The translations under genes were made by a program, and so were the position numbers. Shown piece after piece: positions 1 to 55,152 of a stretch of DNA of 64,000 bases (its first letter is position 1; each line of letters starts with the position of its first letter). This DNA is from Planctomycetota bacterium (GTDB lineage Bacteria; Planctomycetota; Phycisphaerae; Sedimentisphaerales; Anaerobacaceae): the NCBI GenBank assembly GCA_022566315.1, contig JADFJC010000004.1, positions 1 to 64,000 of the forward strand, written 5' to 3'. Below the pieces are notes generated by a model. That model saw nothing but the letters and a program-made list of their open reading frames with translations, did no database searches and was not told where the DNA came from.

Positions 1-1030
1 CGGGCTTTGCAGGACTGAGCATATGTTCTTCGAGGGCGAGCGAATTTGGCCTGTGCGCCAGATGATTTTGGCCGCCGATGATTATGCTTTGATGCTTGAA
101 AAGATTGATGCTGCCGAGACCGCTAAAGAGAAAAAGGCGATTCAAAAGGAATATGCTGTTGCCAAGAAGCAGTTTGAAGGTGCGTTGAAGAAGCTGCTGC
201 CTTATCAGCGCAGTGATTTTGAAGGTATATTTAAGGCGATGGCCGGTCTGCCGGTTACGATTCGATTGCTTGACCCGCCGCTGCACGAGTTTCTGCCGCA
301 GGACAAAAAAAGTCAGGCGGAGATGGCCAGGCGGCTTGGGGTCAAGCCGGCGGTTGTCAAGGCGAAGGTCGAGCAGTTGCATGAGTTTAATCCGATGTTG
401 GGACATCGCGGGTGCCGTTTGGCGGTAACGTATCCTGCGATTTACCGTATGCAGACAAGGGCGATAATCGAGGCGGCACTCAAGGTCAAAAAGGCCGGCA
501 AGGTTGTTCTGCCTGAGATTATGATTCCATTGGTCGGGGCCGTTTCGGAATTGAAGTTAGTCAAAGACGACATCATTGACGAAATCAAGATGGTCTTTAA
601 GGAAAAGAAGGCCAGGATAAAATATTTGATTGGTACGATGATCGAGGTTCCGAGGGCCGCGTTGACGGCTGATGAAATTGCTACCGAGGCCGATTTCTTT
701 AGCTTCGGGACGAATGACCTGACGCAGATGACGATGGGTTTTTCGCGGGATGATGCCGGGAAGTTCTTGGGCGAGTATGTCGCGAAAGGGATTTATGCGG
801 CGGACCCGTTCCAGATACTCGACCAGACAGGCGTCGGCATATTAGTAGAGATGGGGACGAAATTAGGCAGAAAGACCAAGAAGAAATTAAAGGTCGGTAT
901 CTGCGGCGAGCACGGCGGTGAGCCGAACAGTATTGACTTCTGTCACCGGGTCGGGATGGATTATGTTTCGTGCTCGCCGTTTAGAGTGCCGATTGCACGA
1001 CTGTCGGCGGCGCAGGCGGCGGTGAGGTAA
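1..1030 (+). CDS. ppdK: Pyruvate, phosphate dikinase, C-terminal part (5' end outside window)
   Basis: Interconverts pyruvate, ATP and phosphate with PEP, AMP and pyrophosphate in the cytoplasm; in anaerobes it often works in glycolysis or gluconeogenesis. The frame is open to the window edge and begins with [10 protein letters not shown], a hallmark of the PEP/pyruvate-binding TIM barrel, so the first listed Met is internal and over half of the roughly 900-residue protein is missing. Further signatures are [17 protein letters not shown] and, near the C terminus, [11 protein letters not shown] with the catalytic Cys. The end ([16 protein letters not shown]) is normal for the family. No gene follows on this strand for several kb, so it ends its transcription unit. 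The family assignment is firm. Confidence 0.97.
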
Positions 1031-1336: not shown

Positions 1337-1475
1337 TAAAAGAACAGAAGACAGAAAACGGAAGGCAGATGAGTGGATGGTGGCTCGTTGCTCGTATCTC
1401 GTATTGCGTATGTCGTATTGCATATAGAGAATAACGTACAGCGTATCGTGAAAGAAATCAAAATTGTGGAGGGTT

Positions 1476-1539
1476 GTTGTATGAGCAGGATAATGTATCT
1501 AGTCCTTTTGATTAGTCAAAAGGACTATGAGCCTATTCG
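1476..1539. repeat. 64-bp hairpin repeat, copy 1
   Basis: The core at 1500-1527 is a perfect 12-bp inverted repeat (TAGTCCTTTTGA arm) with a TTAG loop. It is followed by the conserved TGAGCCTATTCG and preceded by an ATG exactly 20 nt before the inner palindrome. Only here is that ATG preceded by a good Shine-Dalgarno (GGAGG, 8 nt upstream). Read from the ATG, all three copies give a peptide containing VLLISQKDYEPIR. Confidence 0.85.
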
Positions 1540-1731
1540 AGTATTTTCGCTTTTTTTAGTAGATAAATTTTTGGTTGTTTCTTGCGTTGGGTGGATTTGG
1601 CCGGTAAAATGCTTTGAGAGGTTTGCATCACGTAGAGATATTTTAGGAAATGGTGATCCCGATTAGATAAACATCACTATCTAACAGGGTATAAGTGGGA
1701 ATGGTGGAGAAATACCATATCATAATGGCCT

Positions 1732-1795
1732 GTTGTATGGGTGGGAGAAAGCATATAGTCCTTTTGATTAGTCAAAAGGACTACGAGCCTATTCG
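1732..1795. repeat. 64-bp hairpin repeat, copy 2
   Basis: Same stem and loop as copy 1, at 1756-1783, about 256 bp downstream. The reading frame from the unit ATG (1737) ends quickly with a TAA after IRFF. The Tyr codon is TAC where copy 1 has TAT. Confidence 0.85.
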
Positions 1796-1984
1796 GTTCT
1801 TCTAACAGAAAGAGCGAGAACGCTTAGTATCAAAGCTAATAAATTGATTTATATTTATTTTGATGGAAGGTATTTTGTTTAGCGGTAGATTGTTCGTTGA
1901 TTCATTTATTTTTTAATTCGTTAAAATTCTTTTGCTTTTTACTACTTTTTCAACAGGCCTACTGTTCCTATTTTAATATGGCCT

Positions 1985-2048
1985 GTTATATGAGTGGGAG
2001 AATGCATATAGTCCTTTTGATTAGTCAAAAGGACTACGAGCCTATTCG
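1985..2048. repeat. 64-bp hairpin repeat, copy 3
   Basis: Same stem and loop, at 2009-2036, about 253 bp after copy 2. Upstream homology with copy 2 is longer (ATGGCCTGTT-TATG context), so copies 2 and 3 are the closest pair. Confidence 0.85.
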
Positions 2049-2212
2049 ATTATTTAGTAGGAATTTTTTCATTTGTATTTTTCCTTTATATTTTTCCTTT
2101 ATCTCGCTTGTTGTTTACCAGGCTTTTCTCCCTATTTTTCTCGTTGCCGTCGGCGTAAGTCGTTAGAGTTTTCTGCGGATTGGATAGAATTGGTTGGAAC
2201 CCGGCGAATACT

Positions 2213-2548
2213 TTATGAAGACAATTTAGCACTAACCAGCCGATTGAGACTAATATCCGCCTCAGCGGCCTCACGTGCGAGTTTACGATGTACTTCCGGA
2301 GGCACCCGGACCATGAATTTGCCACTGTATTTTCTGGAACTAAGCGGCTCCGGCACAGATTCACCATTGGCTTGCATATCTTCTGTAACATCGGCTACGA
2401 CCTTGCGTATTCCCCGTAGAGCTTTCTCAGGGTTGGAGGCCAGATGGCTCAAGCTTGGAAACTCCGCACACAATCCCACACACTGAGCATCCTCTTCAGA
2501 CCAAATTACCCGATATGTATAACGGTCAATCTTCGGTAGTGTTTTCAT
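2213..2548 (-). CDS. hicB: HicB-family antitoxin
   Basis: Antitoxin of a HicAB type II toxin-antitoxin module; HicB proteins bind and block the HicA ribonuclease and repress their own promoter. The 111-residue protein has the usual two parts. The N-terminal HicB fold is about residues 8-60 (YRVIWSEEDAQCVGLCAEFPS). The C-terminal ribbon-helix-helix is about residues 75-108 (GKFMVRVPPEVHRKLAREAA then SLNRLV). The ATG follows a GAGAGG Shine-Dalgarno and lies inside the 3' end of hicA with a 23-bp overlap, so the genes are co-transcribed toxin first. No damage is visible. Confidence 0.88.
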   Translation of the reverse strand: MKTLPKIDRYTYRVIWSEEDAQCVGLCAEFPSLSHLASNPEKALRGIRKVVADVTEDMQANGESVPEPLSSRKYSGKFMVRVPPEVHRKLAREAAEADISLNRLVSAKLSS

Positions 2549-3018: not shown

Positions 3019-3687
3019 TTACGGTCGGGGCTCTGTTGTAGTTTTTGTGAAATTTAAGCTGGCGAAATCACCATGATATTTTCGAGCCGCTCGATCATAA
3101 GCGTGGGCTGCTTCGGTTTCGTTGGAGAAGTAGCCGAGGTGGTAGGTTTTTTTATTGGAGGTTATCTGGGCGGCCCATTTTTTACATCCTTTGTTCCAGT
3201 GGACGCCTTTGTATTTTGATGTTCCGTGTGAGAGCCTTCTCTGGTTCTGGCAGTTTTGGGTGAAAGTTGCAAGGCGAAGATTACTCCTGCGGTTGTTCAG
3301 GCCGTTGTGGTCGATGTGGTCAACGACGAGATGGTCGGGGGCGTTGGTGATTTGGCGGTGCATTTTGATGCTTTTGCCGTTTTCTTTTCGGACGGCGTAG
3401 TAATTTTTGTCAGTGCCTTCGGCGAACCAGGTGTATTGACTCAAGCTGGGATAGTCTTTGGTATCTACGATGGTGAATAGGCCGCGGGTAAGAGGTATGA
3501 GGCGAGGGGTGCGGTTTTGGGCTTTGGCGGCCCGTGAAGGGTGGAAGTTGGGGCATTTGTCGAGGAGGGAGCGGACTTTCCAGGTGCCTTCGGAGCATTT
3601 TTTCTGGCGGCAGATAAGAACAGCACGGCCGGTGCCGGTGGCAAAGGTCGAGAAGCAGCAATTGTCACATCGTTTTTTGTGAGACAT
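3019..3687 (-). CDS. HNH endonuclease with zinc-knuckle N terminus and AP2 DNA-binding domain
   Basis: Probable free-standing homing-type endonuclease. The N terminus (residues 1-50) has Cys pairs resembling a zinc ribbon (CDNCC, CRQKKC, KCPNFH). The middle carries an HNH nuclease core (KMHRQI, then HLVVDHIDHNGLNNRRSNLR) with the His-Asn-His arrangement. The C terminus (about 155-215) is an AP2/ERF-type domain (SKYKGVHWNKGCKKWAAQI, then YFSNETEAAHAYDRAARKYHG). HNH-AP2 fusions are typical of mobile endonuclease genes in phages and bacteria. The ATG follows AAGGA with 8-nt spacing. The gene stands alone between gene-free tracts, as expected for a selfish gene. Confidence 0.88.
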   Translation of the reverse strand: MSHKKRCDNCCFSTFATGTGRAVLICRQKKCSEGTWKVRSLLDKCPNFHPSRAAKAQNRTPRLIPLTRGLFTIVDTKDYPSLSQYTWFAEGTDKNYYAVRKENGKSIKMHRQITNAPDHLVVDHIDHNGLNNRRSNLRLATFTQNCQNQRRLSHGTSKYKGVHWNKGCKKWAAQITSNKKTYHLGYFSNETEAAHAYDRAARKYHGDFASLNFTKTTTEPRP

Positions 3688-53301: not shown

Positions 53302-53757
53302 CTAAATATTATTTTTATGGCCTTGCACGTATTTTATTCTTTGCTCCAAGGTCGTTCTGTCGAAACAAAATCTTTTGTCGTATCCATTTGTCCAGAGTCT
53401 GCCATTATGGCCCAAAGCTTTCAGCGCGAGTCGCGCAGCCTTCTTGTAATAAGCAACAATCTTACTTATTGGTTGTGGAACATATTGTGCAACCACGTGG
53501 ACATGCGTTGGATGCACAGCTAACGCATATATGCGTTGACCTTGTGATGCTGCTTCCTCAGTGATGGCTTTTCGCACCACTTGTTGTTGAGCTTTTGATA
53601 ATCGAACTGCATCTTGCAGTTGTGCTCGTTTATTAGTTTGCATCAAGTCTTTGTTTCCGGGATAAATTCTGCCGTTTTTTACGTAGCCGCGTTCGTCACC
53701 CTGCAGCCAGGTTCCGTAAGTTGTTCAGGTAATCATATATCCTAATGTTTTCGCCAT
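53302..53757 (-). pseudogene. REP-associated tyrosine transposase (Y1/IS200-like) with in-frame TGA
   Basis: Y1-type HUH transposase of the RAYT group. The full frame from the ATG at 53757 reads MAKTLGYMIT, then TGA (complement 53725-53727), then TTYGTWLQGDERGYVKNGRI and on to the end. Relatives have Trp at the TGA position (ITWTTYGTWLQGD, from memory), so a TGG-to-TGA nonsense change explains it. After it the HUH motif HPTHVHVVAQY and the YYKKAARLALKALGHNGRLW and YDKRFCFD regions are intact. Other genes here end with TGA, so it is not a Trp codon in this organism. Re-initiation at TTG/ATG 53646 would give a 114-residue fragment lacking the N-terminal strand. REP-like hairpins flank the gene. 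Confidence 0.85.
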
Positions 53758-53775: not shown

Positions 53776-53823
53776 CCCCCAGTTTTACTGGGGGTTTTAC
53801 TTAGCCCCCGGTTTTACCGGGGG
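53776..53823. repeat. Pair of REP-like hairpins between the transposase and rmuC
   Basis: Hairpin 1: CCCCCAG (53776-53782), TTTTA loop, CTGGGGG (53788-53794). Hairpin 2: CCCCCGG (53805-53811), TTTTA loop, CCGGGGG (53817-53823). The second covers the last codons of rmuC and the space between them holds its stop. Confidence 0.87.
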
Positions 53824-55152
53824 TTCTTGACTGTTTCCCTCGTTGTTCATTTCGTTTTGACCTTCTTCGGCCTCAGGTGCCTGAATCATCCTTGTTGTCT
53901 TGTCTATTGTTTGGAGTGTTTGTATTTCATCTCCTGTTGCAGCACCAAGTTCCCGGAATCTGCGGGCTGTTACCAAAATCCTGCTTTCAAACGACCCCAC
54001 AGCCTTGTTGTATCCATCTACGGCATTGTCTAAACCCTTGCGAATATCGTTCAGGTGGTTAGCAAAAGCACGCACTCTATCGTACAGTTCATTCCCCAAT
54101 TTGCCGATAATCTGCGCACTTTCAGCAAGTTGCTTTTGTTTCCAATCGTAGGCTATTCCCCGCAACAAGGCAATTAAAGTCGTTGGCGAGGACAACCACA
54201 CCCGTCGTTGCACGCCAAATTCGATTAGGTGCGGGTCCTCCTGGAGTGCTGCGCTGAAAAACACTTCCCCGGGCAAGAACAGAACTACATATTCAGGACC
54301 CGGCTGGAACTGCTCCCAGTATCCCTTGGAGCCCAAATTGGAAATATGCGTCCGTACGCGTGCGGCATGCTCCTTCAGTTTGCTTCGCCTGGTCTCGTTA
54401 TCATCTGTTTCTGTAGCTTGGATATAGGCATCGAGCGCTACCTTGGAATCAACAACTATCATTCGTTTGTTTGGTAGTCTAATCACCATGTCCGGCTGTA
54501 AACGCCCCGTTTCCGTGGTGACCGACTTTTGTTCCATGAAGTCACAATACTGCAGCATGCCTGCTAGCTCGACGACATTTCGCAGTTGCATTTGTCCCCA
54601 CAGACCCCCGACGGTGGGCCTTCGCAATGCGCTCACCAGATTAGCTGTTTCCTTTTTCAGTTGCGCCTCTGAGGTAAGAAGCGATTCGATCTTCTCCCTC
54701 ACCCCCGAGTGGTCTTTTCCAATCTGTCTGAGTGCATCATCTACGTTCTTGAGGGAATCTTTCAGGGGCTTAACCAGTTCATCTACGGCCTGCTTGCGTT
54801 TCTCGATGTCTCCTCTCGCACCTTCTTGGAATTTCTCCAGGTTTGCCTTCGCCAATTCTAGGAACTGGGTATTGTTGTTCTTCAAAGCCTCAGCAGACAG
54901 GGCTTTGAAAGCGTCAGAGAGTTTTTCCTTCGCGTCGTTCAAGAAAGCAAGTTTTTCTTCTGCAGTTTTTTGCTGTTCACTGAGCGTAGCGAGATCGACT
55001 GTCAGTTTTGTGCATTCCTCTTGGAGTTGAGAGATTTGACCTTCTTTTTGCATTATGGCCGAATCATGCTGCTTAGTTTCCTTATGCTTCAAAAAGAAAA
55101 CGAGAACACAACCACATATCAGGCCAATCGCAAAAGTCAACGCATATTCCAT
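53797..55152 (-). CDS. rmuC: RmuC-family DNA recombination protein
   Basis: Membrane-anchored coiled-coil protein with a nuclease-like (PD-(D/E)xK type) domain, proposed to limit inversions at short repeats. The start at 55152 (GGAG upstream) gives an N-terminal transmembrane helix (YALTFAIGLICGCVLVFFL). A coiled coil (about 30-180) follows, then the RmuC domain: GGLWGQMQLRNVVELAGML, MIVVDSKVALDAYIQATE and EYVVLFLPGEVFFSAAL. The C terminus SQEPPVKPGAK is translated REP hairpin DNA and carries the stop codon. A longer frame up to 55227 adds 25 unlikely residues. Confidence 0.93.
   Translation of the reverse strand: MEYALTFAIGLICGCVLVFFLKHKETKQHDSAIMQKEGQISQLQEECTKLTVDLATLSEQQKTAEEKLAFLNDAKEKLSDAFKALSAEALKNNNTQFLELAKANLEKFQEGARGDIEKRKQAVDELVKPLKDSLKNVDDALRQIGKDHSGVREKIESLLTSEAQLKKETANLVSALRRPTVGGLWGQMQLRNVVELAGMLQYCDFMEQKSVTTETGRLQPDMVIRLPNKRMIVVDSKVALDAYIQATETDDNETRRSKLKEHAARVRTHISNLGSKGYWEQFQPGPEYVVLFLPGEVFFSAALQEDPHLIEFGVQRRVWLSSPTTLIALLRGIAYDWKQKQLAESAQIIGKLGNELYDRVRAFANHLNDIRKGLDNAVDGYNKAVGSFESRILVTARRFRELGAATGDEIQTLQTIDKTTRMIQAPEAEEGQNEMNNEGNSQEPPVKPGAK

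Follow-up and report, generated by a model that had tools for sequence, protein, structure and literature searches.

What are the three evenly spaced, hairpin-like repeats near the beginning of this planctomycetal contig: genes for a micropeptide, a family of small RNAs, sites of recombination or transposition, or something else? The window, that is, the whole 64,000-nucleotide stretch of DNA that was analysed, corresponds to contig C142 of its own genome (G000), a 4.2-Mb assembly in 244 contigs. The repeat features are the following.

Start 1469: 77-nt repeat unit of copy 1
1500-1527 (28-bp core; about 38 bp with outer arms, 1495-1532), plus strand: palindrome copy 1
1725-1801, plus strand: repeat unit of copy 2
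1756-1783 (28-bp core; about 38 bp with outer arms, 1751-1788), plus strand: palindrome copy 2
1978-2054, plus strand: repeat unit of copy 3
2009-2036 (28-bp core; about 38 bp with outer arms, 2004-2041), plus strand: palindrome copy 3

The repeat and its distribution

The even spacing that drew attention to this locus is real: the 77-nt units start at 1469, 1725 and 1978, that is, at intervals of 256 and 253, and each contains, as originally described, a perfect 12-bp inverted repeat with a TTAG loop, the palindrome core being the 28 bp TAGTCCTTTTGATTAGTCAAAAGGACTA. The spacers, claimed to be unrelated, are largely so, but pairs of window copies remain alike for 25-55 bp on the left side of the core and for 12-28 bp on its right. 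The region around all three repeats is poor in genes and is bounded by the end of a gene at 23-1030 (plus strand) and by a HicB-family gene at 2213-2548 (minus strand; PF05534, E 9.9e-16). The latter is overlapped by a small frame at 2526-2786, a candidate partner with no family confirmed. About 1 kb from the repeats, at 3022-3687 on the minus strand, there is a homing-endonuclease-like frame (PADLOC HEase profile, E 2.9e-5), and intergenic repeats of the GTATTGCGTATA..CGTACAGCGTATCG kind, with matches in many genomes of the family, occupy positions 1384-1446.

The search for further copies that the original prediction had proposed recovered 13 exact and one 3-mismatch forward copies of the 28-mer in the 4.2-Mb genome, the exact copies on eight contigs (C17, C78, C79, C142, C145, C205, C226 and C238) and the 3-mismatch copy on a ninth. 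Because the reversed control pattern has no match in the same genome, the repeat is far beyond chance. Using a pattern with Y/R at four arm places and two loop places and at most 3 mismatches, the palindrome was detected in 16 of the 89 genomes of the family, representing 11 of the 45 genera, at 1-14 copies per genome found, with no match of the reversed control in any of them. The exact form, at up to 3 mismatches, was absent from 24 genomes of other families in the order. Among the public contigs with the same 28-mer, 12 of 13 are titled Phycisphaerae/Sedimentisphaerales and the thirteenth is labelled an ANME archaeon. The contig L046 (JANJFQ010000133.1), labelled Methanophagales archaeon, has at least 160 bp to the left and 117 bp to the right of the palindrome in common with C17 of the window's own genome and is probably a mis-binned Phycisphaerae contig.

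A shorter relative of the palindrome, TAGTC-N4-GACTA followed by YGAGC, is also spread; on C145, the long and short forms stand side by side, and in two genomes the short form makes up 60-bp tandem arrays with a conserved unit.

G004:C433 (L099 2284-2557): short-form tandem array
G028:C72 (L102 1802-1950): short-form tandem array

When open frames of at least 150 aa, rather than the output of a gene finder, are taken as neighbours, the 42 classifiable long copies lie between convergent (16), same-strand (18) and divergent (8) gene pairs, and 8 more copies are unclassified. Six of the ten copies in G012 are found between convergent genes and none between divergent ones.

A non-coding palindrome under DNA-type constraint

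In the window, the ATGs at 1481, 1737 and 1990 are in frame with VLLISQKDYEPIR, and the copies differ in this frame by silent changes only (TAT/TAC and CGA/CGG), which is what the idea of a micropeptide gene was built on. The distance from the ATG to the inner palindrome is fixed, as claimed, although it amounts to 19 nt, not 20, when counted to TAGTCC. A coding gene should keep an open frame and a start in every copy, but among 56 copies, an in-frame ATG, GTG or TTG before the upstream stop is missing in 22, the ATG itself in 35, and a stop falls inside the nine codons in 6. The common substitutions, at core positions 6, 10, 13, 16 and 19, alter the amino acid, core positions 1, 3, 4, 7, 8 and 9 and their partners are invariant across the 55 distinct copies, and the peptide variants (VLLI, VLSI, VFSI and VFLI; SQ, SR, NQ and NR) track the variation of the palindrome. 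Because the variable positions follow the palindrome and the common substitutions change the amino acid, the peptide seems conserved in the window, on this comparison of copies, only as a by-product of the conserved palindrome. The micropeptide, which changes wherever the palindrome varies, is by the same comparison refuted as a general property of the repeat family, and we regard a gene of this kind as extremely improbable.

The second idea, a family of small RNAs, can be judged from the pattern of changes in the stem, and the covariation check that had been suggested was run on an alignment of 55 distinct copies. The 17-pair palindrome, comprising the 12-pair core and five outer pairs, is 89.3% paired, with both-sided changes at eight pairs, and its covariation score was reached by none of 500 shuffles, a figure inflated by the relatedness of the copies. 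An RNA stem is expected to tolerate G.U and to avoid A.C, but the one-sided changes in the 12-pair core include 14 G.T and 14 A.C, and the outer five pairs show 28 of the former and 22 of the latter. Because G.T and A.C are equally frequent in the core, the palindrome behaves as a DNA dyad would and not as an RNA stem: its constraint is of the DNA type, like that of the half-sites of a DNA-binding protein, and a stem-constrained small RNA finds no support. The statement that no described family matches the repeat agrees with the Rfam search, in which the gathering thresholds yield three tRNAs only in the whole window and leave the repeats unmatched.

The same observations bear on the possibility that the repeat is an RNA element or a bidirectional terminator that works as a hairpin in the transcript. 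The stems are perfect over 12-17 bp, some copies score terminator-like and more than a third of the classifiable copies (16 of 42) sit between convergent genes, all as such a reading would have it. The equal counts of G.T and A.C in the core, the A/T-rich apex of the palindrome, the lack of a family match in Rfam and the fact that one of the three window copies was reported as terminator-like, on one strand, nevertheless render it highly improbable.

A linked gene for a small LuxR/GerE-type protein

The frames beside the copies include a gene that pairs of palindromes bracket in two genomes, G008 and G103 (contig CAIODZ010000004). Its product, of 80 aa, consists almost entirely of a LuxR-family GerE domain. 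A profile made from these two proteins retrieved homologues in three more genomes (G000, G012 and G033), and although these genes were found by profile and not via adjacency to the palindrome, each proved to be palindrome-adjacent. The gene of the window's own genome is located on another contig.

G000:C226:22979-23218: gene for the 80-aa protein, between an inverted pair of palindromes

Across the 89 genomes, the five-member profile gives five full-length proteins at 156-166 bits, followed by a homologue in G004 at 104 bits and by matches at 87 bits and less. The full-length gene is present once per genome where it occurs and is physically linked to the palindrome in all five of these genomes. 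A palindrome lies upstream of the gene in all five units, with gaps to the start codon of 30, 62, 69, 74 and 182 bp, and a second one 66-69 bp past the stop codon in three; in G012, both the near copy (69-bp gap), which is degenerate, and a further one 324 bp upstream have 4 mismatches. Scanning of 54 loci with LuxR homologues revealed the palindrome in six, namely, the five units with one fetched twice, and none at up to 6 mismatches in the other 48, among which some places were also fetched twice. All five gene-bearing genomes belong to the 16 of 89 that contain the palindrome, a coincidence with a probability of 1e-4, uncorrected for relatedness and for the two genomes that prompted the test; the adjacency of gene and palindrome is the stronger argument.

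The palindrome can persist without the gene, given that 11 of the 16 palindrome genomes are without its full-length form, including G016, a single contig (90% complete), and G020 (98% complete); in G035, there is a 54-residue partial match cut at the contig edge. A tblastn scan, from which the G012 unit with its 4-mismatch copies was left out, returned no decayed luxR sequence at E below 0.7 up to 600 bp away from any other copy. Upstream of three of the five gene units, a promoter scan gave no signal clearly beyond shuffles, nor did it bear out the promoter that visual inspection had suggested beside the G033 palindrome.

By both domain and fold, the 80-aa protein belongs to the LuxR/GerE-type helix-turn-helix (HTH) proteins. 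The GerE domain (PF00196; E 4.8e-16) scores 58.6 and 54.8 bits in the G008 and G103 proteins against the Pfam cut-off of 23.5. The model of the own-genome protein has five helices (pLDDT 95.5), and its top solved folds are Bacillus subtilis GerE (1fse) and the NarL-DNA complex, with Foldseek E values of 2.6e-3 to 4e-3, probability 1.00 and TM-scores by query of 0.63-0.68. The protein consists of the DNA-binding domain and a short N-terminal helix alone, with no sensor or catalytic domain visible.

An unrelated 30-bp palindrome, ATACGTAAAGCGCGTACGCGCTTTACGTAT, stands on both sides of the G004 homologue, a 109-aa frame; one of the two copies is perfect, whereas the other has one mismatch.

G004:C90 (L178 1349-1378 and 1873-1902): pair of 30-bp palindromes

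This second palindrome is dispersed as well. Among the six genomes searched, one further copy was found in G004, one in G002, two each in G003 and G005, and none in G000 and G001. One of the G003 copies occupies a seemingly orthologous place without the gene, the stretch beyond being 84% identical over 623 bp, a comparison that rests on BLAST coordinates, as MAFFT did not line up the palindromes. Thus, a second homologue is associated with a different palindrome, and the same layout with another site is what would be expected if the protein reads the palindrome.

Proposed operators, possible mobility and known systems

The explanation that we favour, with some reserve, is that the palindrome family is probably the double-stranded DNA target of the 80-aa HTH-only LuxR/GerE-type protein, dispersed as small non-coding repeats. 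Under this explanation, the protein would bind the dyad, probably as a dimer or a pair of dimers, and would probably control its own gene from the upstream copy, its own operator, so that the gene may be autoregulated. Solitary palindromes could act as decoys or as occasional operators of neighbouring genes. The copies, whose flanks range from next to nothing to about 160 bp, have been dispersed and tandemly duplicated between genes, and the three in the window are a local cluster, with the gene elsewhere, on C226. Several observations count against the explanation. At 28-38 bp, the near-perfect palindrome exceeds the 18-20 bp that the site of a LuxR-type dimer measures; the palindrome persists where the full-length gene is missing; the loop has no constant orientation relative to the gene, in addition to the lack of a clear promoter signal noted above; and locations between convergent or same-strand genes, which make up most of those classified, are poor places for operators of neighbouring genes.

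Whether such sites move can be approached through their flanks, and the idea of a recombination or transposition site may apply to the repeat, given flank modules that are shuffled around the palindrome. Window copy 1 is part of two such modules.

1408-1532, plus strand: left flank module with palindrome copy 1, 82-87% shared with C78, C79 and C238 (shorter)
1481-1691, plus strand: palindrome copy 1 with right flank, 87% over 213 columns to G003:C271

The similarity of the left module ends about 5 bp to the right of the core, and in several pairs of copies it likewise stops about 5 bp past the core, where the outer palindrome ends. One left block, present in 7 copies, is joined to several right blocks, and conversely, a 159-bp right block is common to window copy 1 and G003:C271, from another species of the genus, the left flanks of which are unlike. 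In G003, the right flank of copy 1 continues into an ORF that may be the start of a restriction enzyme, and the part of this flank at 1608-1702 has weak relatives (76-93%) in G004:C73, G005, G033 and C117 of the own genome. The four copies in the single contig of G016 share roughly 100 bp, and the two on C78 result from the tandem duplication (173 bp) of an element present only once in G003. An integron-type cassette array, suggested by the even spacing, became a less likely reading once the copies proved to be dispersed and the 173-bp spacing on C78 to be a tandem duplication. Carriage by phages or plasmids was set aside too: neither the palindrome nor a relative of the 80-aa protein was found in viral contigs, and phages and plasmids give only distant LuxR-type matches (<60% identity). 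Because no filled and empty versions of a site could be shown between close strains, transposition of the copies is something that we infer.

The alternative is a static regulon, in which the sites were conserved or evolved independently upstream of the regulated genes, with no mobility involved. The palindrome does occupy an orthologous place in G032 and G107, a third genome of that genus, G106, has a mutated copy with flanks matching on both sides, and the copies in G012 share little beyond about 40 bp of palindrome. This alternative is nonetheless unlikely, considering that flanks of 30-160 bp were copied along with the palindrome, that convergent gene pairs are so common around it and that the neighbouring genes look functionally unrelated, as far as the starts of their proteins, read with no formal test, indicate.

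A bolder proposal, possible although rather doubtful, is a minimal selfish unit that consists of the palindrome and a catalysis-free HTH protein, would spread as palindrome-gene-palindrome and decay to solitary palindromes, and would comprise at least two co-diverged lineages, a TAGTC type with the five 80-aa proteins and a ATACGTAAAGCGCG type with the G004 homologue. Lacking a transposase of its own, such a unit would depend for its movement on the host, through recombination or replication at the palindrome.

Palindromes dispersed over bacterial genomes usually have a transposase gene as their partner, as in REP/RAYT, or no partner gene. Here the linked gene encodes a small DNA-binding protein in which no catalytic domain is visible; its divergent homologue comes with a different palindrome. 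If binding is real, this would be a testable pair for the spread of operators through genomes and for the co-divergence of regulator and site, in uncultivated Phycisphaerae, of whose regulation, to our knowledge, little is known. 'Mobile promoters' are an existing concept, and the phrase did not occur in the literature searched. The literature, represented mostly by titles and the openings of abstracts, contained no account of this repeat.

The REP/RAYT layout, as set out in PMC2817692, includes a gene flanked by palindromes and dispersed solitary palindromes. The likeness extends to intergenic solo copies and compensating changes. One could therefore suppose that our palindrome is REP-like and is mobilised in trans by one of the host's Y1 (RAYT) transposases, with the LuxR gene as a passenger. 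Y1 genes are indeed present in the own genome (5, one of them within the window) and in 9 of the 11 other genomes searched, and one Y1 gene (L122) has a palindrome about 440 bp away on a single side, while another, on C205, is about 1.5 kb from two palindromes. However, the palindrome is found in a single one (L122) of the 32 Y1 loci scanned, whereas many of these loci have GC-rich hairpins of their own with a CTAA/TTAG foot, which the palindrome is without, and G016 has its four palindromes and no Y1 match, so this scenario is quite improbable. The Y1 gene in the window exemplifies the pattern.

53323-53601, minus strand: gene for a Y1 (RAYT-like) transposase
About 53283 and 53776-53830: hairpins of this gene's own, CCCCCGGT..ACCGGGGG, flanking it on either side

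Among the 32 Y1 loci, no Y1 (PF01797) gene is flanked by the repeat, and no head tetranucleotide beside a GC-rich hairpin was found; in the 55-row alignment, the outer arms GCTCR/YGAGC are part of the palindrome. Despite the like layout, the family thus falls outside REP/RAYT, because the host Y1 genes mostly have their own hairpins and the palindrome is without the REP head. The differences are that a gene for an HTH-only LuxR-type protein is present here instead of a Y1 transposase, that the GT(A/G)G head is lacking, that 1-14 copies per genome were found and that the two palindromes may be direct or inverted relative to each other.

ERIC/RU (for RU, PMC2759123) and BOX-type repeats are small, dispersed, intergenic and MITE-like, with fortuitous reading frames. 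The present repeat resembles them in these respects, and differs from them in sequence, taxon and the linked candidate DNA-binding protein. With GerE and other HTH-only LuxR-type regulators, the 80-aa protein shares the domain, a similar length and the top structural match. The sites of GerE are short and are not dispersed repeats, whereas the gene described here adjoins long, near-perfect palindromes dispersed over the genome. Our best overall reading is that of mobile-looking operator palindromes, similar to REP/RAYT in layout, with a regulator in the place of the transposase.
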